Source: Streptomyces misionensis | Lineage (GTDB): Bacteria; Actinomycetota; Actinomycetes; Streptomycetales; Streptomycetaceae | Direction: 5' to 3' | Assembly: GCF_007896895.1 (NCBI RefSeq) | Contig: NZ_VOGW01000161.1 | Location: forward strand, 1 to 64,000 | Length of the DNA stretch: 64,000 nt | Shown: positions 40,448 through 51,761 of the stretch, piece after piece | How the letters are laid out: every line of letters begins with the position of its first letter | Numbering within the stretch: the first letter of the stretch is position 1 | Notes under the pieces: generated by a model | Told to the model about the DNA's origin: nothing | The model's database searches: none | Seen by the model: the letters and a program-made list of their open reading frames with translations, nothing else | Translations under genes and position numbers: made by a program

Positions 40448-41143
40448 GTGCTGCCAGTACGGGGACGAGACGGCCGTGACTCCAGGGCTCTGCGCGTCCT
40501 GGGCACCCGCACCGCATGGACTGCCGTGGGCGACGGCGAGTTCTACTGCCCGGGCTGCGGGGGCGACCGCAACTACCAGCGGCTCACCGGGCGCCGCAGG
40601 CTCACCGTGTTCGGGGTGCCCGTGCTGCCGCGCGGGACGACCGGGCCCGTGGTGGAGTGCGCCGACTGCGGCCACCACTACGGCACCGAGGTCCTCGACC
40701 ACCCCACCACCCGCCGCTTCTCCGCGATGCTCCGCGACGGTGTGCACACCGTGGCCCTCGCGGTGCTCGCCGCGGGCGGCACCGGTTCCCGGGCGCCTCT
40801 GGAGACGGCCTGCGCGGCGGTCCGCGCGGGCGGCGTGGACGACTGCACGGAGGAGCAGCTCGCCGCGCTCGTCGACGCCCTGGCCGCCGACACCGGCCGG
40901 GTGCTGGGCGAGCCCTGCGGCGCCAGCCTGACCATAGAGCTGCACGAGGCGCTGGACCCGCTCGCCCCGCACCTCGCCCCGGCGGGGCGCGAGGCCCTGC
41001 TCCTCCAGGGCGCCCACATCGCCCTCGCCGACGGCCCCTACACCCCCGCCGAGCGCGACGCCCTCACCACGGTCGGCGCGGCCCTGACCCTCCCTGCCGA
41101 CGACGTCACCCGGCTGCTGGCGGCCGCCCGCACGCCCTCCTGA
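40448..41143 (+). CDS. Zinc-ribbon and TerB-like domain protein
   Basis: The 231-residue protein starts with GTG at 40448 after a GGGAGG ribosome-binding site. The N-terminal part (residues about 20-75) has a CxxC...CxxC zinc-ribbon (FYCPGCGGDRNY, CADCGHHYG). The C-terminal part is a TerB-like helical domain (TEEQLAALVDALAADTG, EALLLQGAHIALADGPY). TerB-type proteins occur in tellurite resistance and stress or envelope-linked signalling complexes, but this zinc-ribbon form is uncharacterised. It stands alone between leuA and the sialidase gene. Confidence 0.8.
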   Translation: MLPVRGRDGRDSRALRVLGTRTAWTAVGDGEFYCPGCGGDRNYQRLTGRRRLTVFGVPVLPRGTTGPVVECADCGHHYGTEVLDHPTTRRFSAMLRDGVHTVALAVLAAGGTGSRAPLETACAAVRAGGVDDCTEEQLAALVDALAADTGRVLGEPCGASLTIELHEALDPLAPHLAPAGREALLLQGAHIALADGPYTPAERDALTTVGAALTLPADDVTRLLAAARTPS

Positions 41144-41213
41144 GCACCGGGGCGCCGGATCATTGGCTCGAACGGAGTAAGGCGCACCCGTCCCGGGCGG
41201 GCAGCATCACGGC

Positions 41214-42419
41214 GTGACCCTGCCGCGCCGCGCCCTCCTCACCGGCCTCCCGCTCCTCACCGGCCTCATGACCCCGGCACCCGCCCACGCCAGGCCCCCC
41301 GAGCCCGCCGCGAGCACCTCCTCGCGGCCCTACGTCTCGGGCCGAGGCGGTTACGCCGCCTACCGCATCCCCGCACTGGCCCGCACCCGGCGCGGCACGG
41401 TCCTCGCCTTCGCCGAGGGCAGGCGCGACGGCCCCGGCGACAGCGGGGACATCGACGTGGTGCTGCGCCGCTCCGCCGATGGTGGCCGCACCTGGGGCCC
41501 GCTCGCCGTGGTGGCCGCGGGGCACGGGAACACCCGGGGCAACCCGGCGCCCGTCGTCGATCCGCGTACCGGTGACATCATCCTGGTGACCTGCGGGAAC
41601 GCCGGGGATGTGACGGAGGCGCAGATCATGCGCGGCGAGGTGCCGGCGGCGCGGGGCCGCCGGGTGTACGTGCAGCGCAGCACGGACGACGGCCGCACCT
41701 TCACCCCGCCGCGGGACATCACGGACGCGGTCAAACGGCCCGGCTGGCGCTGGTACGCGACCGGGCCCGGTCACGCCGTCGCCCTCACCCGGGGCCCGCA
41801 CCCCGGCCGCCTCCTGGTCCCCGCGAACCACTCCACCGCCCCGGCCGAGGGCTCGAAGGACACCGGCAGGGAGGCCCGGCACTACGCCGGTCACGCCCTC
41901 CACAGCGACGACGGCGGCACCACCTGGCACCTCGGCTACCAGGCCACCGGCCCCGCCGGGACCGTCAACGTCAACGAGACCAGTGCCACCCAACTCCCCG
42001 ACGGGCGCGTCTACTTCAGTGCCCGCGATCAGAACGGCAGCGCCCCCGGCAACCGCCTCGACAGCTACTCCTCGGACGGCGGCGCCACCCTCGACCGCCC
42101 CTACGGCCCCCAGCCCACCCTGAAGGACGTGCCCGTGGTCCAGGGCAGCGTGCTCCAGCTCCGGGGGGCCGGCGCCCCGCTGCTGTTCTCCGGGCCCTCC
42201 GTGCCGACCGCCCGCCGCGCCATGGCGCTGTGGTCCAGCGCCGACGCCGGCCGCACCTTCACCCGCCTGGCCACCCTGTCCGAGGGCCCGGCGGCCTACT
42301 CCGACCTGGTCCAGCTCGGCCCCGGCACGGTCGGCGTCCTGTTCGAGACGGGGCCCTACGACGCCCTGGAGTTCCGCCGGGTGACCGGGATCGGCGCTCA
42401 CTCTCCCGGCGGCCGGTGA
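41214..42419 (+). CDS. Secreted exo-alpha-sialidase (GH33)
   Basis: The 401-residue enzyme cleaves terminal sialic acid. It has a short signal peptide (ALLTGLPLLTGLMTPAPAHA), the YRIPALAR motif (sialidase FRIP), and four Asp boxes of the S-x-D-x-G-x-T-W/F form: SADGGRTW, STDDGRTF, SDDGGTTW and SADAGRTF. This is the six-bladed propeller of GH33. It precedes a HAD phosphatase and a NanA/DapA-type lyase, but the ScbR-like gene overlaps its 3' end convergently (22 bp), so they are not one operon. Whether sialic acid or a similar nonulosonic acid is the natural substrate is unknown. Confidence 0.88.
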   Translation: MTLPRRALLTGLPLLTGLMTPAPAHARPPEPAASTSSRPYVSGRGGYAAYRIPALARTRRGTVLAFAEGRRDGPGDSGDIDVVLRRSADGGRTWGPLAVVAAGHGNTRGNPAPVVDPRTGDIILVTCGNAGDVTEAQIMRGEVPAARGRRVYVQRSTDDGRTFTPPRDITDAVKRPGWRWYATGPGHAVALTRGPHPGRLLVPANHSTAPAEGSKDTGREARHYAGHALHSDDGGTTWHLGYQATGPAGTVNVNETSATQLPDGRVYFSARDQNGSAPGNRLDSYSSDGGATLDRPYGPQPTLKDVPVVQGSVLQLRGAGAPLLFSGPSVPTARRAMALWSSADAGRTFTRLATLSEGPAAYSDLVQLGPGTVGVLFETGPYDALEFRRVTGIGAHSPGGR

Positions 42420-43006
42420 GCCCCGGGCGCGGGCCGCAGCGAGGGCAGGGTCAGCTGCCACCAGTCGGTGAGCCGGTCGGTGACGGTGGCCGCGCCCTCC
42501 AGCGCCTCGGTGAGCGAGCACAGGCCGAAGAAGGCGCGCACCAGGGCCCGCGCGGTGGCGGCGGGCCGGACGTGCGCGGCCACCTGGCCGGCCAGCCGGG
42601 CCTCCGCCAGCAGCCGGGTGGCGGCGGCGGTCCAGAGCGCGAACGGGTCGGGCAGCGGGGCGTCGATGACGGCGCGCTCGGCCCACAGCCGTGCGCCGGC
42701 GCGGGTCACCGGGTCCTCGGCGAGGGCGCGGGCGATGTCGTAGCTGAGGGCGACCAGGCGCTCCACCGGCGGCACCGCCCGGTCCGCGTACGCCGGGGTG
42801 AGCTGCGGCCAGGTGGCGAACCGGTCCCGGACGACGGCGAGCGCGATGCCCTCCTTGCTGGCGTAGTGGAAGTAGACCGCGCCGCTGGTCCGGCCCGACC
42901 GGGCGCTTATGTCGTTGACGCTGGTCCCCGCGTAGCCCTGTTCCGCGAAGAGCTGGGCCGCCGCCTCCAGGAGTGATCTGCGGGTTGCCTTGGCCCGTTT
43001 CTGCAC
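42398..43006 (-). CDS. ScbR-like TetR regulator (gamma-butyrolactone receptor family)
   Basis: The 202-residue protein starts at the GTG at 43006 (VQKRAKATRRSLLEAAAQLF). The N-terminal helix-turn-helix is EQGYAGTSVNDISARSGRTSGAVYFHYASKEGIAL, given in the two halves EQGYAGTSVNDISARSG and RTSGAVYFHYASKEG, typical of ScbR/ArpA-type receptors rather than generic TetR. The C-terminal ligand domain includes a Trp (WAERAVID) common to the group. No ScbA-like synthase is in the window, so it would be an orphan or pseudo-receptor. The longer in-frame start at 43078 lies before the conserved start and is rejected. Confidence 0.8.
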   Translation of the reverse strand: MQKRAKATRRSLLEAAAQLFAEQGYAGTSVNDISARSGRTSGAVYFHYASKEGIALAVVRDRFATWPQLTPAYADRAVPPVERLVALSYDIARALAEDPVTRAGARLWAERAVIDAPLPDPFALWTAAATRLLAEARLAGQVAAHVRPAATARALVRAFFGLCSLTEALEGAATVTDRLTDWWQLTLPSLRPAPGAHRPPGE

Positions 43007-43400
43007 CGTTTCCCGCCCGCCCTCGTTCGGCTCTTCTGACTGCCACGAATGTAATGCGCCCGCGTACGCCCGGAGCAAACAGGAACCACCCTCGTGCGGT
43101 AATTACGTATTTCTTTCGAGGGTGAACGCGGTCGAGTGGTAAAGGGCGTGCGCCGCGGGGGCGTCGCATGTCTCGCGCATATGCGCCAACTGCCGTGCGA
43201 ACAAGTCGATTTGGCGACACCCGGGGGTCTGTGCGGCCGTGCTGCCATACACCTGAAAGCGCTCGCAGTCGAGTCGCTCTATGGGGTTATTGCCTGACTT
43301 ACCGCCGCGAAAATAACGTAGTCATCGCTATCTTTCCGCTTCTTGCGGACAGCCGGGAATGTCGCACATCCCTTTCAAGCGAGGTGCATAGGAGGCCACT
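43007..43400. other. 394-bp divergent intergenic region, AT-richer than surroundings
   Basis: This gap separates the divergent ScbR-like and HAD genes. It holds an inverted repeat CACCCTCG (43087-43094) / CGAGGGTG (43117-43124) around an AT-rich core with the 8-bp palindrome GTAATTAC (43099-43106), and an AT-rich block near 43300. A short ORF at 43168-43404 looks non-coding. The region probably contains the promoters for both genes. Confidence 0.5.
43087..43124. promoter_or_regulatory. Inverted repeat around AT-rich core (operator or terminator candidate)
   Basis: Eight-base arms CACCCTCG and CGAGGGTG are perfect complements flanking a 22-nt loop that contains palindrome GTAATTAC. As a loop of this size is large for a terminator, an operator is equally possible. 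It is about 80 bp upstream of the ScbR-like start, where a self-binding receptor would act. Confidence 0.4.
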
Positions 43401-44084
43401 GTGACCACCACGGCCCAACTGCTCGACTGGTCGCCGCGAGCCGTCGTCTTCGACTGCGACGGCACCCTGATGGACAGCGAACGTCATTGGCAGGAAGCCC
43501 GAAACCTGGCCTTCCGGGAATTCGGGCTCCAAGCTCCACCCGGCTTCGCGGAACAGGCCAAGGGAGTGCACTACGCGGACTGCGGCCGGCTGATGGCCGA
43601 GTCGGTGCACAAGCCCGAGCTGACGGACGGCCTGACGGCGGCGCTCCTCGACCACTTCCTGGAACTGGTCACCGACGACCCGGTGACCATGCCGGGCGCC
43701 GCCCACCTCGTCCGGCTGCTGGCCGGCCGGATGCCGCTGGCGGTGGCCAGCAACTGCCCGATGGTCGTGGTGGAGGGGAGCCTGGAGCGGGCCGGGCTGC
43801 GCGCCTACTTCCAGCACATCGTCGTCCCGGACACGGGGGACGCGGAGGTGCGCCCCAAGCCGTGGCCGGACGTCTACGCCCTCGCGGCCCGCCTGTGCGG
43901 TGTCCCGCCGGAAGAGACGCTGGCCGTCGAGGACTCCCTGACCGGCGTCGAGGCGGCCCGCACCGCCGGACTGCGGGTGCTCGGAGTCGGCCCCCGCCCA
44001 CCCGGCGACGGCGCCGAGCGGGCCGACCTGTGGCTGCCCTCGCTGCACACCCCCGAGCTGCTGACCTGGGCAGAGGCGCACTGA
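43401..44084 (+). CDS. HAD superfamily phosphatase (Cof/PGMB-like)
   Basis: The 227-residue HAD hydrolase has the nucleophile motif FDCDGTLMDSERHW, motif II ASNCPM, motif III RPKPWPDVY and motif IV LAVEDSLTGVEAARTAG. A small alpha-helical cap sits at residues about 25-90 (subclass IA, beta-phosphoglucomutase/phosphoglycolate phosphatase-like). The substrate is not clear; nearby genes for a sialidase and a lyase suggest a sugar or acylneuraminate phosphate, but this is inference. The GTG at 43401 follows TAGGAGGCC at good distance. It is convergent with the lyase gene (7 bp between stops). Confidence 0.85.
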   Translation: MTTTAQLLDWSPRAVVFDCDGTLMDSERHWQEARNLAFREFGLQAPPGFAEQAKGVHYADCGRLMAESVHKPELTDGLTAALLDHFLELVTDDPVTMPGAAHLVRLLAGRMPLAVASNCPMVVVEGSLERAGLRAYFQHIVVPDTGDAEVRPKPWPDVYALAARLCGVPPEETLAVEDSLTGVEAARTAGLRVLGVGPRPPGDGAERADLWLPSLHTPELLTWAEAH

Positions 44085-44091
44085 AGCGGGG

Positions 44092-45018
44092 TCACAGCAG
44101 CCCGGCGCAGGCGAGGAACTTGGCGACCTTCTCCGTCTCCTCGCCGGACAGCGGCACCTGCGGCTCGGCCGTGACCGGACAGTCGATCACGCCCCGCAGG
44201 TGCAGGGCCGCCTTGAACGCGCCGAGCGCCGAGGAACCGGCGCCCATCCGCGCCGGATCACCGACCGCCGTCAGCCCGAACAGGGCGCACAGCCGCTCCT
44301 GTTCGGCCCGCGCCCCCTCCCAGTCGCCCGCCCGGCACTGCCGGTACAGCCGTACGTACCCGTGCGGATCGACATTGGCGAGCCCCGGCACCGCCCCGTC
44401 CGCGCCCAGCGCCAGCGCGGCGTCGGCGATCAGCTCCGAGCCGGTCAGCACGCCGAAGCCGGGGTGGGCGCGGGCACCGGTGACCAGCTCCCGGAAGGCC
44501 GCCAGGTCCCCGCTGGAGTCCTTGATCCCGGCCAGCACCCCGTCCCCGGCGAGGCCGAGGACCAGCTCGGCCGGGAGCTTGGTGTGCACGGCGACCGGGA
44601 TGTCGTAGGCGATCACCGGCACCGGGCTCAGGGCCGCGATCCGCCGGTAGTGGTGCACGATCTCCGAGGGGTGGGTGCGGGCGTAAAACGGCGCGGTGAC
44701 CACCACCGCGTCGGCTCCGGCCGCCGTGACCGCCCGGACGTGGTCGAGGACCCGGGGGGTGGTCATGTCGATGGCCCCGGCCAGCACCGGCAGCTGCCCG
44801 CCCAGGTGCCCGGCGACCGTCTCCACCACCCGCCGCCGCTGCGCGTCCGTGAGGAAGGCCGCCTCCGATGTCGAGCCGAGCACGAACAGCCCGTGCACTC
44901 CCGCCCCCACCAGATGGTCCACCAGCCGCAGCAGCGAGGGCGCGTCCACCTCGCGCTCGGGCGTCAGGGGCGTGCAGACGGGCGGGACGACTCCGGTGAG
45001 CGGCGCGGGGAAGGTCAT
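44092..45018 (-). CDS. DHDPS/NanA family lyase
   Basis: The 308-residue TIM-barrel enzyme is a class I aldolase of the dihydrodipicolinate synthase/N-acetylneuraminate lyase family. The Schiff-base Lys is in LAGIKDSSGD and the active-site Tyr in VIAYDIPVAVHTK. The DHDPS carboxylate-binding Arg after the Tyr is absent, arguing against lysine synthesis, and GSTSEAAFLTDAQRR resembles neuraminate or 2-keto-sugar aldolases. The neighbouring sialidase favours a sialic acid or other 2-keto-sugar acid substrate, but this is inference. The ATG at 45018 is preferred over the extension to 45114. Confidence 0.82.
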   Translation of the reverse strand: MTFPAPLTGVVPPVCTPLTPEREVDAPSLLRLVDHLVGAGVHGLFVLGSTSEAAFLTDAQRRRVVETVAGHLGGQLPVLAGAIDMTTPRVLDHVRAVTAAGADAVVVTAPFYARTHPSEIVHHYRRIAALSPVPVIAYDIPVAVHTKLPAELVLGLAGDGVLAGIKDSSGDLAAFRELVTGARAHPGFGVLTGSELIADAALALGADGAVPGLANVDPHGYVRLYRQCRAGDWEGARAEQERLCALFGLTAVGDPARMGAGSSALGAFKAALHLRGVIDCPVTAEPQVPLSGEETEKVAKFLACAGLL

Positions 45019-45152
45019 CGACGGCTCCTGCGGGGTGGGTCGGGGTCGGGGGTCCTCGTGTCCAGGATGGTGACAGCGGCGGCGGTGTGCCGGGTGCGAC
45101 GCGGCCGACCGCACGGGACGGGCTCGTCAACCCACCCCTCTCCCGCCCCCTG

Positions 45153-45198
45153 GCCAACGCGCGTAGAAGCGAGCATCATTGGCAGGCGCCAACGCGCG
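45153..45198. repeat. Direct repeat GCCAACGCGCG x2
   Basis: GCCAACGCGCG occurs exactly at 45153-45163 and 45188-45198, with 35 bp between start points (3.3 helical turns). It is in the gap upstream of the cysteine-rich gene and could be a regulator site. Confidence 0.45.
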
Positions 45199-45245
45199 AT
45201 CCCCGCACCGTTTCGTTCGTCGTTTTGTCATGTGCGTGTCATGTC

Positions 45246-45265
45246 GCACCACGCGTCCGTGGTGC
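45246..45265 (+). promoter_or_regulatory. Perfect 8-bp hairpin in leader of cysteine-rich gene
   Basis: GCACCACG (45246-45253), loop CGTC, CGTGGTGC (45258-45265) form a perfect stem, 33 nt upstream of the ATG at 45299 and 20 nt upstream of its AAGGGA ribosome-binding region. It could be an mRNA stability or regulatory element, or a protein-binding palindrome. Confidence 0.5.
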
Positions 45266-45298
45266 CTGCGATCTCCCCGTCGACGAAGGGACACAGCA

Positions 45299-45721
45299 AT
45301 GGCTTGCGGATCCACCAGTCTTTGGGCAGGAGAGACCTCCTGGTTCTGCTGCGGCAGTTCCTGGGGCCCCTGCGGCAGCACCGGAACCGGCGCCTGCGGC
45401 ACCTGCCAGTCCGGCAAGAACATGGCCGCCTGGCCCAATCTCTCGGCGGCCTGCTGGAGCGTCACCAACCCGGCGGCCTGCGGCGAGAACATGCCCAGAC
45501 GCGGCTGCGGTTCGGTCGTCAACGTCAAGCACCAGTGCTCCGGCGCCACGGTCTGCGTCACCCTCGCCGACTGCGGCCCCAACACCCAGATGTGGTGCAG
45601 CGAGCAGACCTGCTGCAACGGCGCCTGCCGCACCCACCGGGTCCTCGACCTGACCCCCGCCGCCTACTCCGCCATCGGCAGCCTCAGTTCCGGCCTGCTT
45701 CCCGTCTACATCTACGAGTGA
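45299..45721 (+). CDS. Cysteine-rich double-psi-barrel-like protein (140 aa, 16 Cys, no signal peptide)
   Basis: The 140-residue protein (start MACGSTSLWAGETSWFCCGS) has 16 Cys and 6 Trp. The N-terminal half is Cys/Gly/Trp-rich (GPCGSTGTGACGTCQSG). The C-terminal half looks like a double-psi beta barrel of the RlpA/expansin type: a CGSVV strand, VTLADCGP, then VLDLTPAAYSAIGSLSSGLL and PVYIY. No signal peptide is visible, although 16 Cys are hard to keep reduced or oxidised correctly in the cytoplasm. The next gene encodes a Tat-exported protein and the one after a MauE-like redox membrane protein, so export together with the Tat partner is a reasonable idea. AAGGGA precedes the ATG at 45299. 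Methylamine dehydrogenase light chains are also Cys/Trp-dense and MauE-dependent, but the C-terminal part here differs. Confidence 0.7.
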   Translation: MACGSTSLWAGETSWFCCGSSWGPCGSTGTGACGTCQSGKNMAAWPNLSAACWSVTNPAACGENMPRRGCGSVVNVKHQCSGATVCVTLADCGPNTQMWCSEQTCCNGACRTHRVLDLTPAAYSAIGSLSSGLLPVYIYE

Positions 45722-45735
45722 GGAGGAACCCCGTC

Positions 45736-46344
45736 ATGAGCGAACGCAACGGACTCGGCCGGCGCCGTCTGCTGACCAGCGCGGCACTCGGCGGTGCCAC
45801 CATCGTGGGCGCCTCCGCGCTCGGCGGCCTGGACGCGGACGCCGCCTTCGCCGCACCGATGCCCTCCCTCGACCCGGCGGTCTCCACCTCGGTGTTCGTC
45901 GACGGCCGCGTCGGCCAGATCAGACGCGGCGTCCTCGACGTCGTCGAGGCGGACGGCACGCACAAGCTGATCCAGCTCACCAACGCGACCAGCATCTGGA
46001 AGCTGGAAACCGTCACCGCCGAGGCCGTCGAGGTCGGCGACGGCCTGTACGCGCGCGGTGTGCAGATGCCCGACGGCAGCGTGGCCGCCGACGCGGTCTG
46101 GGTGAACATCGTCAACCTCTACGTCACCATCCGCGGCATCGAACGCTCCCGGCTGCACCTGAGCCACGGCCGCAACGCCATGGTCGGCAACATCGTGGAG
46201 AAGAAGACCACCGCCTCCTTCCGGGGCGGCGCCCTCACCTCCAACCTCTCCCAGCTGCGGATCGGGCACCACGCCCAGGTGCTCGGCGCCTGGCGGCCCG
46301 CCGACGACAGCGTGGACATCGCCCGTATCAGCGTCGGGCACTGA
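45736..46344 (+). CDS. Tat-exported protein with two DUF5666-like OB-type repeats
   Basis: The 202-residue protein carries a twin-arginine signal (GRRRLLTSAALGGATIVGAS, cleavage near AFA-AP). The mature part has two related beta-rich units: RVGQIRRGVLDVVEADGTHK to AADAVWVN, then RGIERSRLHLSHG to IARISVG, resembling DUF5666-like OB folds. The start is set by AGGAGGA immediately after the preceding stop, so the gene is translationally coupled to the cysteine-rich gene. No catalytic residues are recognisable. It may act as carrier or partner for the cysteine-rich protein. Confidence 0.75.
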   Translation: MSERNGLGRRRLLTSAALGGATIVGASALGGLDADAAFAAPMPSLDPAVSTSVFVDGRVGQIRRGVLDVVEADGTHKLIQLTNATSIWKLETVTAEAVEVGDGLYARGVQMPDGSVAADAVWVNIVNLYVTIRGIERSRLHLSHGRNAMVGNIVEKKTTASFRGGALTSNLSQLRIGHHAQVLGAWRPADDSVDIARISVGH

Positions 46345-46360
46345 GACAGGGGGTACGGAA

Positions 46361-47242
46361 GTGAGCGCATCGCTCGCCATGAACCTCGCCCCGCTGCTGC
46401 TGGGCGTCCTGCTCGCCGGCACCGGGGCGGCCAAGGCGTTCGGCCGGCAGGTCGCGGGGCAGGCGGCCGGCACCGTGCTGGTCCGCGTCCTGAACGACGG
46501 CCGTCGTGCCACGCTCGTCCTGCGGGCCACCGGAGTGCTCGAACTCGCCGTCGCCGGGGGCCTGTTGGCAGCCCCGACCACCCCGGTACCCGGCGTCGCC
46601 GCCCTGGTCCTGGGCGTCGGCTTCCTCGGTTACCTCGGGTACGCCCGGGTCACCGCCCCGCAGTCGTCCTGCGGGTGCACCGCCCGCGGCAACGGCCCGA
46701 TCACCTGGCGGGCCTTCGTCCGCGCGGGGCTGGTCGCGGTGGGCGGTGCCACGGCGGCCGGGGCCCGAACGGCCTGGTGGGGCCAGGTGGTCCGGGACCC
46801 GGTGGCGTCGGTGCTCCTCCTCGCCGCCGTCACCGCCGTCCTCGTCGCGGTCTCCAGCGACCTCGACCACCTCTGGCTGGTCCCGCTGCGCCGGACGCGG
46901 CTGAAGGTCTTCGGGCACCCGCTCGTGCCGGGCCGGGACGACGAGGTACCGGTGGCCGCCTCCGTCGAACTGCTGGAGCGCTCGCTGGCCTGGGTGGCCG
47001 CCGCCCCCGTCGTCCGCTCCGGGCTGATCGACCACTGGGAGTCCGACGGCTGGCGCTTCCTCCAGTACGCGGGCGTCCACGACCCGGAGGGGGCGGCGCG
47101 TCCGGTCACCGTGCTGTTCGCGGTGGACCCGCGCCAGACCAGGGACACCACCGACAACCCGGCGATCCGCGTCACCCTGATCGACGACCGGACCGACGAA
47201 CCGGTGGCGGCCGACCTGCTCGGCGCCCTGCCCACGGGCTGA
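46361..47242 (+). CDS. MauE/DoxX family redox-associated membrane protein
   Basis: The 293-residue protein has about four to five membrane segments in its first 160 residues (APLLLGVLLAGTGAAKAF; ELAVAGGLLAA; VAALVLGVGFLGYLGY; FVRAGLVAVGG; VASVLLLAAVTAVLVAV) with a periplasmic SSCGCTARGNGPITWR motif, the CGC of MauE-like proteins. In methylotrophs MauE serves the disulfide maturation of methylamine dehydrogenase light chain. The last 130 residues form a hydrophilic domain not in MauE. The gene follows the Tat gene by 16 nt, making it the third member of the cassette. The CGC pair may provide oxidising or isomerising equivalents. Confidence 0.8.
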   Translation: MSASLAMNLAPLLLGVLLAGTGAAKAFGRQVAGQAAGTVLVRVLNDGRRATLVLRATGVLELAVAGGLLAAPTTPVPGVAALVLGVGFLGYLGYARVTAPQSSCGCTARGNGPITWRAFVRAGLVAVGGATAAGARTAWWGQVVRDPVASVLLLAAVTAVLVAVSSDLDHLWLVPLRRTRLKVFGHPLVPGRDDEVPVAASVELLERSLAWVAAAPVVRSGLIDHWESDGWRFLQYAGVHDPEGAARPVTVLFAVDPRQTRDTTDNPAIRVTLIDDRTDEPVAADLLGALPTG

Positions 47243-47272
47243 GCCGCGAGGCGCCGTCGGGCGCGACCGCAC

Positions 47273-47308
47273 GGGCCGCCCGCCTCCGACGCCGGAAGCG
47301 GGCGGCCC
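47273..47308. terminator. Bidirectional hairpin after MauE-like gene
   Basis: GGGCCGCCCGC (47273-47283) pairs perfectly with GCGGGCGGCCC (47298-47308), between the convergent MauE-like and TetR genes. Confidence 0.65.
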
Positions 47309-47315
47309 CCGCGGG

Positions 47316-47999
47316 TCAGTGGGGCAGGCCGATGTACTGGCCCATGGCCGTCGCCGCGTGCGTGAAGAAGGCGGCCGGGTCCGCGGCCACGCCCGCGATG
47401 TGGCCGTTGACCTCGAAGCCGACCATGCCGTGCAGCTGGGTCCAGATGATCAGCATGCGGGTGATGACGGGGGTGGGCAGGCCGCTCAGCATGCCCTGGG
47501 ACAGCGGCTCGATCGTGCGGGCCATGCCCTCGGACAGCTCCGGCATGGGCACGTGGTCCACCGCGAGCCGTCCGGCCGCGAGCGCCTCGCGCACCAGGCC
47601 GAGCAGGACGAGCACGGTACGGGCGCCCGCGACCATCGTCTCCGGCGGGGCGTCGTAGCCGGGCACGGGCCGGCCCCAGATCAGCACGTACTCCTCCGGG
47701 TGGGCGAGCGCCCACGCGCGTACGCCCTCGCACGTGGCGACCCAGCGGCCCAGCAGGTCGGCGCCCGCCTTCTCCGCCTCGGCCGCGGCCCGCTCCGCGC
47801 TGTCGCCCATGGCGTTGTAGGCGGCCAGGACGAGATCGGTCAGCAGGCTGTCCCGGTCGGGGAAGCGCTCGGTTATCGACGCCGGGTCGAGCCCGGCGTC
47901 CCGGGCCAGTCCGCTCGGGTCGAGATCGACCTGGTGACGAGCCGCCAGGCGACGGCCCGCCTCGGTCTTCAGGAGGTCGTGAGCATCGGAAGTCGTCAT
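47316..47999 (-). CDS. TetR/AcrR family regulator (TetR_C_13/WHG type)
   Basis: The 227-residue protein has an N-terminal helix-turn-helix (GLARDAGLDPASITERFPDRDSLL) and a C-terminal domain with the WVATCEGVRAWALAHPEEYVLIWG signature of the WHG group, split here as WVATCEGVRAW and ALAHPEEYVLIWG. The degenerate recognition helix spacing (QVDLDPSGLARDAGLDPAS) makes the first helix weaker than usual. It is divergent from nothing nearby: its start at 47999 lies 124 bp from the ADH stop, which is the next gene on the same strand. The target is unknown. Confidence 0.8.
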   Translation of the reverse strand: MTTSDAHDLLKTEAGRRLAARHQVDLDPSGLARDAGLDPASITERFPDRDSLLTDLVLAAYNAMGDSAERAAAEAEKAGADLLGRWVATCEGVRAWALAHPEEYVLIWGRPVPGYDAPPETMVAGARTVLVLLGLVREALAAGRLAVDHVPMPELSEGMARTIEPLSQGMLSGLPTPVITRMLIIWTQLHGMVGFEVNGHIAGVAADPAAFFTHAATAMGQYIGLPH

Positions 48000-48122
48000 G
48001 ATCCCGACCCTGCCAGAGGTCTTCGGGCGCGTCGATTACGTCCGGGGTAATGCGGCGCGAATGCGCCCAGTTCTGGCCGGTGCCGGGACCAGCGGGCGGT
48101 GGCCGGCGGCGAGGGCGGATGG

Positions 48123-49151
48123 TCAGGGACGGATGAGGGCCTTGAGGACCTGGCGGTCGGCCATGGCCCGGTAGGCGTCCGGGGTCTGGTCGAGGGGGAA
48201 GGCCCGGTCGAAGACGCGGCCGGGGGTGATGGTGCCGTCCAGGACGTCGGCGAGCAGTTCCGGGATGTAGGCGCGGGCGGGGCAGGCGCCGCCGGTCAGG
48301 GTGAGGTTGCGCAGGAACTGCGCCGGGCCGATCGGACCCTGCTCGTACTGGGGGACGCCCAGGCGGCTGATGGTGCCGCCGTCCAGGACCGCGCCGAGCG
48401 CGGTGTCGAGGGCCTGGCGGGTGCCGACGGCCTCGATGACCTTGTCCACGCCGCCGGTCAGCTCGCGGATGCGGGCGATGCCCTCCTCGCCGCGCTCGGC
48501 GACCACGTCCGTGGCGCCGAACTCGCGGCCCAGACCGGTGCGGGCCTCGTGACGGCCGGCGAGCACGATCCGCTCGGCGCCGAGCCGCTCGGCGGCGATG
48601 ACCGCGCACAGGCCGACCGCGCCGTCCCCGAGGACCAGGACCGTGTCGCCGGTGCCGACGCCGGCGGTGACGGCGCCGTGGTGGCCGGTGGCCATCACGT
48701 CGGAGAGGGCCAGCAGCGACGGCAGCAGCGCGGAGTCGGCGGCCACCGGCAGCTTCACCAAGGTGCCGTCCGCGTGAGGGACGCGAACGGCTTCGCCCTG
48801 GCCGCCGTCGACACCGTCGAAGCCGTACCGCCCGCCGTCGCGGCACGAGAAGTGCAGGCCCTTGGCGCAGTAGTCGCAGGTGTTGTCGCTGTAGGTGAAC
48901 GGGGCGACGACCAGATCACCGGCCTTCAGGCCGGTCACGTCCGCGCCGGTCTCCTCGACGACGCCGAGGAACTCGTGGCCCATGGGGCGACCGGTGTCGA
49001 TTACGGGCATGGACGCGTAGGGCCACAGGTCGCTGCCGCACACGCACGCGGCCAGCGTGCGCACCACCGCGTCGGTGGGCCGGGCGATCTTCGGATCGGG
49101 CCGGTTCTCGACGCGGACGTCGCCGGCTCCGTACATCACTGCTGCGCGCAT
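48123..49151 (-). CDS. Zinc-dependent alcohol dehydrogenase-like (MDR) protein
   Basis: The 342-residue medium-chain dehydrogenase has catalytic-zinc ligands in CGSDLWPY and GHEFLGVVEE, structural-zinc cysteines in NTCDYCAKGLHFSC (three of four visible), and the nucleotide-binding GDGAVGLCAVIAAERLG. Family members act on alcohols or aldehydes with NAD(P). The ATG at 49151 is chosen because homology starts at MRAAVMYGAGD. The aldo/keto reductase gene is the next gene on the same strand, 49 bp upstream of it, so the two are probably an operon controlled by the divergent XRE regulator at 50396. Confidence 0.88.
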   Translation of the reverse strand: MRAAVMYGAGDVRVENRPDPKIARPTDAVVRTLAACVCGSDLWPYASMPVIDTGRPMGHEFLGVVEETGADVTGLKAGDLVVAPFTYSDNTCDYCAKGLHFSCRDGGRYGFDGVDGGQGEAVRVPHADGTLVKLPVAADSALLPSLLALSDVMATGHHGAVTAGVGTGDTVLVLGDGAVGLCAVIAAERLGAERIVLAGRHEARTGLGREFGATDVVAERGEEGIARIRELTGGVDKVIEAVGTRQALDTALGAVLDGGTISRLGVPQYEQGPIGPAQFLRNLTLTGGACPARAYIPELLADVLDGTITPGRVFDRAFPLDQTPDAYRAMADRQVLKALIRP

Positions 49152-49153
49152 GA

Positions 49154-51307
<2,154 letters not shown>

Positions 51308-51520
51308 TCAGGGCCGGGAGCTCGTCTCTCCGACGGCGCCGATGAAGCGCGTCCACGCCGCCGGACCGATGAGCAGCACCGGCCCGGCGGCCAGCTTGCT
51401 GTCGCGGACGGGGACGATGTCGGGGACTCCGTCGGCGACCTCGACGCATTCATTCGAGCTGTCACCGCTGCTGTAGCTGCTCTTGCGCCAGCGGGCGTTC
51501 GTCAAGTCGTGGTCGTGCAT
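51308..51520 (-). CDS. DUF397 protein (copy 1)
   Basis: A 70-residue acidic protein with the DUF397 motifs RWRKSSYSSGDSSNECVEVA and PVRDSKLAAGPVLLIGPAAW. DUF397 proteins are small partners of XRE regulators in Streptomyces (Scr2/WhiJ-type systems) and influence their activity. It begins 28 bp after the second copy, both on the same strand as the XRE gene at 51743, and forms the end of that gene set. Confidence 0.9.
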   Translation of the reverse strand: MHDHDLTNARWRKSSYSSGDSSNECVEVADGVPDIVPVRDSKLAAGPVLLIGPAAWTRFIGAVGETSSRP

Positions 51521-51655
51521 GGTCTGGAGACCTCCGTCGCCGACGCGATCAGGACTGGGAGTTCATGGCTCCGATGGTGTCGATGAAGTGCGTCCACGCG
51601 TCCGGGCCGATGAGCAGCACCGGCCCGGCGGCCAGCTTGCTGTCGCGGACGGGGA
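51366..51655 (-). repeat. 49-bp identical block in the two DUF397 genes
   Basis: Bases 51366-51414 and 51607-51655 are identical over 49 bp (encoding PVRDSKLAAGPVLLIG), offset 241 bp, with high similarity outside. This indicates recent tandem duplication or gene conversion between the two DUF397 genes. Confidence 0.9.
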
Positions 51656-51761
51656 TGACACCGGGGACTCCGTCGGCGACTTCGACACAATCCTCGCTGG
51701 CGTCGCCGGTGCTGTAGGTGCTCTTGCGCCAATGTGCTTTGGTCAGCTCGTACTCACGCAT
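51549..51761 (-). CDS. DUF397 protein (copy 2)
   Basis: A 70-residue paralogue of the preceding gene (MREYELTKAHWRKSTYSTGD; PVRDSKLAAGPVLLIGPDAW). Its start codon lies inside the 3' end of the XRE gene (19-bp overlap), so it is coupled to it. Two DUF397 genes in tandem behind one XRE gene is a common Streptomyces arrangement, where each partner may tune the regulator differently. Confidence 0.88.
   Translation of the reverse strand: MREYELTKAHWRKSTYSTGDASEDCVEVADGVPGVIPVRDSKLAAGPVLLIGPDAWTHFIDTIGAMNSQS

Follow-up and report, generated by a model that had tools for sequence, protein, structure and literature searches.

We analyzed a 64,000-nucleotide stretch of the Streptomyces misionensis genome (contig NZ_VOGW01000161.1, positions 1 to 64,000), hereafter the window, and found that three consecutive plus-strand open reading frames (ORFs) in it, with intergenic gaps of 14 and 16 bp, make up a cassette that is conserved across several families. 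The first gene encodes a cysteine-rich protein of 140 residues without an export signal (P0001, 45299 to 45721), the second a 202-residue partner with a twin-arginine translocation (Tat) signal motif (P0002, 45736 to 46344), and the third a 293-residue MauE-type membrane protein with a soluble C-terminal domain (P0003, 46361 to 47242, GTG start). We propose that the cassette may be one assembly-and-export unit for P0001, together with P0002 and P0003, a proposal that could as easily prove right as wrong. The parts are of known kinds, and no description of their combination was found in the open-licence literature on MauE, DoxX, Tat, and cysteine-rich or double-psi beta-barrel (DPBB) proteins, a search in which Streptosporangiaceae were not searched by name. 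An earlier sequence-only reading had described the three ORFs, and their coordinates and lengths, together with the 16 Cys and 6 Trp of P0001, were all reproduced. Beyond that finding there is a second form of the cassette, in which the P0001-like and P0002-like domains are fused in one protein encoded beside a sigma gene.

A scan of genome contigs found the Tat partner at all 33 loci with P0001 relatives and the MauE gene at 32 of them. The lone locus without a MauE gene (L038) stops at a contig edge, and at a further locus (L030) the MauE match is partial and lies near the contig end. Co-occurrence of the three genes, which the sequence-only reading had set beforehand as the test of its proposal, was borne out, and recurrence at 33 loci means that the three-gene arrangement is not due to chance. 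Twenty-eight of the loci are in Streptomyces, among them L008 of S. griseofuscus DSM 40191, and one in Streptantibioticus, the remainder being in a Micromonosporaceae metagenome-assembled genome (MAG), Fodinicola, Actinocatenispora, and a Catenulispora MAG; a complete cassette is also present in Nonomuraea gerenzanensis. Gene surroundings vary between locus groups, the most shared noncassette family occurring at 8 of 34 loci (window included).

The distribution of this split form is patchy. P0001 matches were obtained in 5 of the 61 relatives searched, and the P0001 profile matched 12 of the 394 genomes of a sample of the class, five of them strongly. These five are split forms and three others are fused forms (L045, L046, and L049); L048 and L051 were left out of this sorting. 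L047 reads by eye as an ordinary RlpA-like protein and L050 as a chance match; L006, from the search of the 61 relatives, also reads as a chance match.

In Fodinicola feengrottensis (L036, 5684 to 10420) the genes form a tandem array in which every gene is present twice, followed downstream by a third P0001 copy close to the contig edge. Three of these copies (P0001 copy 1, Tat copy 1, and MauE copy 2) are each split over two frames. An anti-phage role was also considered and set aside, as PADLOC gave no match for P0001 to P0003 or for one fused protein. No P0001 match was present in a phage collection, and plasmid carriage was discarded because the sole match is an 11.85-Mb Nonomuraea record of chromosome size.

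The cysteine-rich protein and its Tat-tagged partner

Fourteen of the 16 Cys of P0001 are invariant in all 37 distinct homologs compared, a set from which duplicates and fragments shorter than 125 residues were excluded; the count is even, as seven disulfides would require. The sequence-only reading had called the C terminus of the protein double-psi-barrel-like. DPBB_1 was listed for 34 of the 34 family members searched at an E value of up to 1, with a best value of 2.3e-8, whereas the 27.1 bits of P0001 itself fall slightly below the Pfam cutoff of 28.8. A weak alignment (E value of 0.035) to a solved “cellulose binding protein,” 4jcw, places DLTPAAY of P0001 opposite DLSEEAF; we take 4jcw to be a bacterial expansin. 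The fold of P0001 is likely a barrel of the expansin/RlpA kind. The DPBB_1 matches liken the family to RlpA and to domain 1 of expansins. In contrast to both, P0001 has neither a signal peptide nor a second expansin domain, and most homologs contain 14 to 16 Cys; as an expansin, P0001 would be a single domain of 140 residues lacking the second, cellulose-binding domain. No Pfam match to the methylamine dehydrogenase light chain was found in P0001.

Structure prediction of P0001 alone, suggested by the sequence-only reading, was carried out with AlphaFold2 on 34 sequences. With a mean pLDDT of 43.6 the model was unusable and was not taken as evidence, and structural comparison of this low-confidence model returned no match with a Z score of at least 2 among 62 chains.

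That P0001 has no signal of its own, as had been read from the window, is confirmed by the gene starts: at eight loci (L011, L012, L020, L025, L027, L029, L031, and L032) an in-frame stop 4 to 15 codons upstream of the start closes the frame.

The N terminus of P0002, RRRLLTSAALGGATIVG..., was classed as a Tat signal on its motif alone. RR-x-hydrophobic was matched in 42 of 42 partner entries, a set that includes a fragment whose match is spurious (L036_6547) and a broken copy with an intact start (L036_6176), and the assignment of P0002 as a Tat-signal protein stands. The signal region, with its RR motif, spans residues 1 to 40 (45736 to 45855, plus strand), and cleavage would probably occur near AFA/AP. 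P0002 contains no Cys, like 37 of the 42 partner entries. For distant partner pairs (mature identity of 0.40 to 0.50, 234 pairs) identity in the signal region averages 0.60, whereas for close pairs (mature identity of 0.80 to 0.95) the gap between signal and mature part disappears, with 0.88 versus 0.87. The stronger conservation of the signal among distant pairs may reflect a second role for it. Relatively conserved signal regions are also described for MelC1, the Tat-tagged helper of Streptomyces tyrosinase (PMC2758597).

The two OB-like repeats ascribed to P0002 are more weakly founded than claimed. They depend on faint matches to DUF5666, obtained for 19 of 27 members at an E value of up to 1 (best, 0.0013), and P0002 itself gave no DUF5666 match; it is possibly DUF5666-like. 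The only MelC matches of P0002 in the Protein Data Bank (PDB) were insignificant and confined to the signal region.

The fused form and its sigma gene

A profile of the fused proteins, in which a P0002-like part precedes a P0001-like part, matched 189 of the 200 genomes of family f19, where, among the places listed, the matches were often two adjacent pieces of one place. In the class sample of 394 genomes there were 40 matches, 39 of them in f19 with both domains in one stop-free frame. The 40th match is in a genome of the window's own genus and came through the Tat partner only, which ties the split and fused forms together; the L016 genome behaves alike. Profile comparison aligned the N-terminal part of the fused protein with P0002 (probability of 97.4, E value of 1e-11) and its C-terminal part with P0001 (probability of 93.5, E value of 2.3e-7). 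Such a natural fusion of the two domains makes a physical pairing of P0001 with P0002 likely.

At 20 of the 20 f19 loci fetched, the order is a divergent ECF sigma gene on the opposite strand, the fused gene, and the MauE gene. The sigma gene directly adjoins the fused gene at 18 of them, and one predicted ORF intervenes at the other two (L086 and L088). One sigma protein belongs to the SigE family (TIGR02983, 193.2 bits against a cutoff of 141.55), and another has sigma-70 domains. The same order is found in Nonomuraea, with a fused protein 70.7% identical to that of L098, and this identity and shared order make it probable that f19 corresponds to Streptosporangiaceae in the broad sense. Both split and fused forms are carried by Nonomuraea and by two further genomes (G181 and G373). 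The fused profile found no match in the genomes of the Actinocatenispora and Fodinicola loci.

The RR-x-hydrophobic motif near the start is kept in 48 of 53 distinct fused sequences. Profile alignment brings the RR motifs of the fused form and P0002 into register, with most of the hydrophobic core missing from the fused form. The most hydrophobic 15-residue stretch of the fused form averages 0.66 versus 1.58 (minimum, 1.47) in 41 Tat partners; one exception, L108, reaches 1.57, but the residues responsible are probably located ahead of its true start. By these measures the fused protein is probably not exported by a signal of its own. No Pfam domain was matched by more than 1 of 16 fused members at an E value of up to 1, and NCBIfam gave no match in the three fused proteins tested; with 189 of 200 f19 genomes matched, a near-core gene of that family may thus gain a role.

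A family of genes encoding proteins of about 395 residues, with a motif that by eye resembles a P-loop, follows the MauE gene at 15 of the 20 f19 loci (L083 to L102); at 12 f19 loci it lies directly adjacent to the MauE gene and converges on it.

Predicted orientation of P0003 and proposed route of P0001

The assignment of P0003 to the MauE type was upheld, with 48.3 bits against PF07291 (cutoff, 27) for a domain at residues 7 to 130 (46379 to 46750). Its AlphaFold2 model (mean pLDDT of 79.5) has five long helices followed, at about residues 196 to 276 (46946 to 47188), by a C-terminal domain in which two helices are combined with four strands. The CGC motif (residues 104 to 106; 46670 to 46678) falls between the third and fourth helices of the model (75 to 98 and 116 to 133) and is invariant in all rows of a 12-row alignment covering split and fused forms. 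Foldseek gave no match for the model at an E value of 0.001 or below. With a second aligner the best solved match was NACHO/TMEM35A (Z score of 10.3, rmsd of 3.1, 119 residues aligned), at a level that helical bundles can reach by chance; we take NACHO to be DoxX related. The C-terminal domain gave weak cystatin- or NTF2-like matches with Z scores of about 4 to 5, these being common arrangements. P0003 thus shares with the MauE of methylamine dehydrogenase biogenesis its family, above cutoff, and a CxC motif, and differs from it in the extra fifth helix, the C-terminal domain, and a net charge pattern opposite to that of ordinary actinobacterial MauE.

This charge pattern bears on where the CGC lies. 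In 73 distinct P0003 relatives (39 of the split and 34 of the fused form, truncated copies of the same gene having been removed), Lys and Arg are concentrated in loops 1 and 3, and a score for the N-in orientation based on the model helices is negative in 73 of 73 by Lys plus Arg and in 67 of 73 by net charge. We compared 64 family members with placeable helices with 33 other actinobacterial MauE proteins by one routine; L136 and L158 were left out of the controls for want of placeable helices, and the TlpA-linked L143 and L150 were kept apart. By net charge the P0003 family was negative in 62 of 64 (mean, −5.3), whereas among the controls 31 were positive, 2 were zero, and none was negative (mean, +4.1). 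The pattern of the P0003 family is thus opposite to that of ordinary MauE. Its charges predict a cytoplasmic position for both the CGC and the C-terminal domain, which contradicts the periplasmic CGC of the sequence-only reading. Charge rules are not decisive here, since this prediction has to be weighed against the usual conservation of orientation among homologous membrane domains.

The neighbors of the control genes make MauE credible as a thiol-redox family, because an outward-scoring CxxC protein is found near 23 of the 33. An inward-scoring one is found near five (L135, L155, L157, L160, and L175), possibly through miscalled gene starts, and none is listed near five more. Two of the CxxC neighbors match Thioredoxin_4 (L132, scored outward, and L135, scored inward). 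Actinobacterial MauE genes (L132 to L136 and L152 to L181) commonly adjoin a gene whose CxxC product carries a membrane helix at its N terminus, and the two are likely a DsbB-like/DsbA-like pair. The cassette resembles the pairs with a DsbA-like Thioredoxin_4 neighbor in placing a MauE protein beside a thiol-active gene, but no thioredoxin-fold partner was found here, and the cysteine-rich protein occupies that place.

The two MauE proteins kept apart score like the P0003 family, and their partners look inward. In both (L150, 1113 to 2551; L143, 1501 to 2643) a MauE-type gene with CLCF or CQCF is followed by a gene for a TlpA-like CEPC protein and an apparent ABC transporter gene. Pfam gave no match for the CEPC protein of L150. 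At L150 a gene for a short Cys-rich peptide lies just upstream, so that this is another MauE set with a possible Cys-rich substrate.

For the assembly-and-export unit proposed above, we envisage that P0001 would fold in the cytoplasm into a compact, disulfide-rich, double-psi beta-barrel-like domain and bind the soluble domain of P0002, and that the pair would be exported by Tat on the signal of P0002, as tyrosinase MelC2 rides on MelC1. P0003, through its CGC, would make or exchange the disulfides of P0001 and so control the export competence of the complex, and exported P0001 would probably act extracellularly or in the cell wall region. Complex formation, co-export, the thiol chemistry of P0003, and the final function are all steps that we infer from sequence. 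Co-export, also put forward in the sequence-only reading, is a good hypothesis and, with P0003 acting on P0001 thiols, the most parsimonious reading, suggested by the signal-less P0001, the Tat motif of P0002, and the natural fusion.

A close parallel is in the tyrosinase operons of Streptomyces, MelC1/MelC2 and MelD1/MelD2, where a signal-less cargo is encoded beside a small Tat-signal helper and MelC2 hitchhikes on Tat-tagged MelC1 (PMC2758597). In the same account MelD2 stays inside the cell, the exported version being sporadic and the unexported one widespread (PMC2758597). The putatively exported split form and retained fused form of the present cassette resemble these two versions. The present cargo differs from MelC2 in being a Cys-rich protein rather than a copper enzyme, and its operon includes a MauE gene. 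A three-part example of Tat co-export, PaoABC, is described in another study (PMC4273604).

Several points weigh against the proposal. The CGC appears by charge to face the cytoplasm, and bacterial disulfides are usually not made in that compartment. The P0001 model is too poor to inform on the fold or on Cys pairing. The fused form has no usable signal, so that its Cys-rich domain may stay inside the cell in f19; it is also poorer in Cys, without a counterpart of the Cys cluster at the P0001 N terminus, so that seven conserved disulfides are not general.

A more specific version of the unit, possible but on the whole unlikely, would have P0003 be a MauE turned round in the membrane, with the CGC and the C-terminal domain cytoplasmic, oxidizing P0001 before or during its docking with P0002; Tat would then export a disulfide-bonded complex, and the fused f19 form would be a version retained in the cytoplasm. 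A cytoplasm-facing P0003 is attractive because Tat quality control hinders disulfide-bonded cargo, a problem that engineered cytoplasmic oxidation relieves (PMC9995818). Disulfide formation in the cytoplasm ahead of Tat export would be shared with the CyDisCo system in Escherichia coli; that system is artificial and uses Erv1p and PDI, whereas the candidate here is a natural membrane protein with a putative role (PMC9995818). If this were true, the engineered systems that combine cytoplasmic disulfides with Tat would have a counterpart in nature. Tat prefers folded cargo, and the way in which disulfide-rich proteins could use it is an open question, both practical and biological. A compact native cassette that brings a cargo and its carrier together with a thiol-family membrane protein would make this question directly testable. 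The split between exported and retained versions would serve as a built-in control, and the two forms together offer a clear set of tests.

Rather unlikely, though with evidence of its own, is the view that P0001 remains cytoplasmic and binds metal or senses thiols together with P0003 at the inner face of the membrane, the Tat protein acting separately outside and the fused f19 protein forming with the sigma factor a redox-responsive regulatory unit. The lack of a signal in both P0001 and the fused form would follow directly, as would the predicted cytoplasmic position of the CGC and the C-terminal domain, and the divergent sigma gene beside the fused gene at all 20 f19 loci and in Nonomuraea would find its place. 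This view leaves unexplained the strict linkage of P0001 to a mostly Cys-free partner with a Tat signal. Moreover, the fusion implies one compartment for both domains, and no sigma gene is widely shared among the split-form loci.

It is improbable that P0003 works instead on the outer side, like a canonical MauE with DsbA-like partners, with P0001 co-exported with free thiols and oxidized afterward. The control proteins do score as N-in with the CGC outside, most of them with an outward-scoring CxxC neighbor, and shared orientation within a membrane domain family would be the general rule. When Lys and Arg alone were counted without the N-terminal tail, the controls leaned weakly negative too (20 negative, 10 zero, and 3 positive; mean, −1.2, versus −8.3 for the P0003 family), so that charge does not settle the matter. 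On the other side, the P0003 family clearly scores opposite to the controls by net charge, the C-terminal domain of P0003 would also need to be outside, and Tat tends to reject incorrectly folded cargo (PMC9995818).

That the linkage is only loose, with an expansin-like protein, a wall protein, and a membrane protein traveling together because of a common promoter and making no direct contact, would fit the occurrence of the cassette in many different neighborhoods with the upstream blocks traveling along, but the domain fusion with a MauE gene still attached and the conservation across families argue for a joint function and make this view very unlikely.

Upstream region and gene neighborhood

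We compared 34 upstream regions, that of the window and 33 others. Two blocks on the plus strand stand out in the window: block A (45151 to 45182, TGGCCAACGCGCGTAG...GCATCATTGG), with GCATCAT at 45173 to 45179, and block B (45224 to 45243, TTGTCATG...TGTCATG). GCATCAT occurs in 27 of the 34 regions and TGTCATG in 28, counts that are inflated by closely related upstream regions; the means over 500 mononucleotide shuffles were 0.22 and 0.17, respectively. Both motifs are missing at L027, L033, and L035 to L038, and GCATCAT is missing also at L015.

The 11-bp direct repeat noted by the sequence-only reading is exact, with copies at 45153 to 45163 (GCCAACGCGCG) and 45188 to 45198 on the plus strand. 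The first copy lies within conserved block A and its 11-mer is present in 13 of the 34 regions; an exact second copy is found in the window only. The perfect hairpin of that reading is likewise present (45246 to 45265, plus strand), with an 8-bp stem and a 4-nucleotide loop. Among the hairpins listed for the other 33 regions, with the first four each for L007, L025, and L032, there was no counterpart at that place, and the region folds no better than shuffled sequences (z score of −0.53); a role as a regulatory or terminator element was rejected on these grounds, and the hairpin is probably incidental. No sigma-70 promoter or terminator pattern was detected at 45000 to 47400.

A Pfam scan of 10 neighboring genes (40526 to 51520) found unremarkable protein types: TerB-like, BNR repeat, two TetR-type, HAD hydrolase, DHDPS, zinc dehydrogenase, aldo/keto reductase, MmyB-like regulator, and DUF397. 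Methylamine dehydrogenase subunits and thioredoxin/TlpA-type proteins are absent from the 10, a difference from the methylamine dehydrogenase cluster that agrees with the earlier remark that no dehydrogenase large chain, MauD, or TlpA is nearby. At 50396 to 51761 of the window, the gene for the MmyB-like helix-turn-helix regulator is followed by an opposite-strand pair of similar 70-residue ORFs, the first of which is the DUF397 gene.

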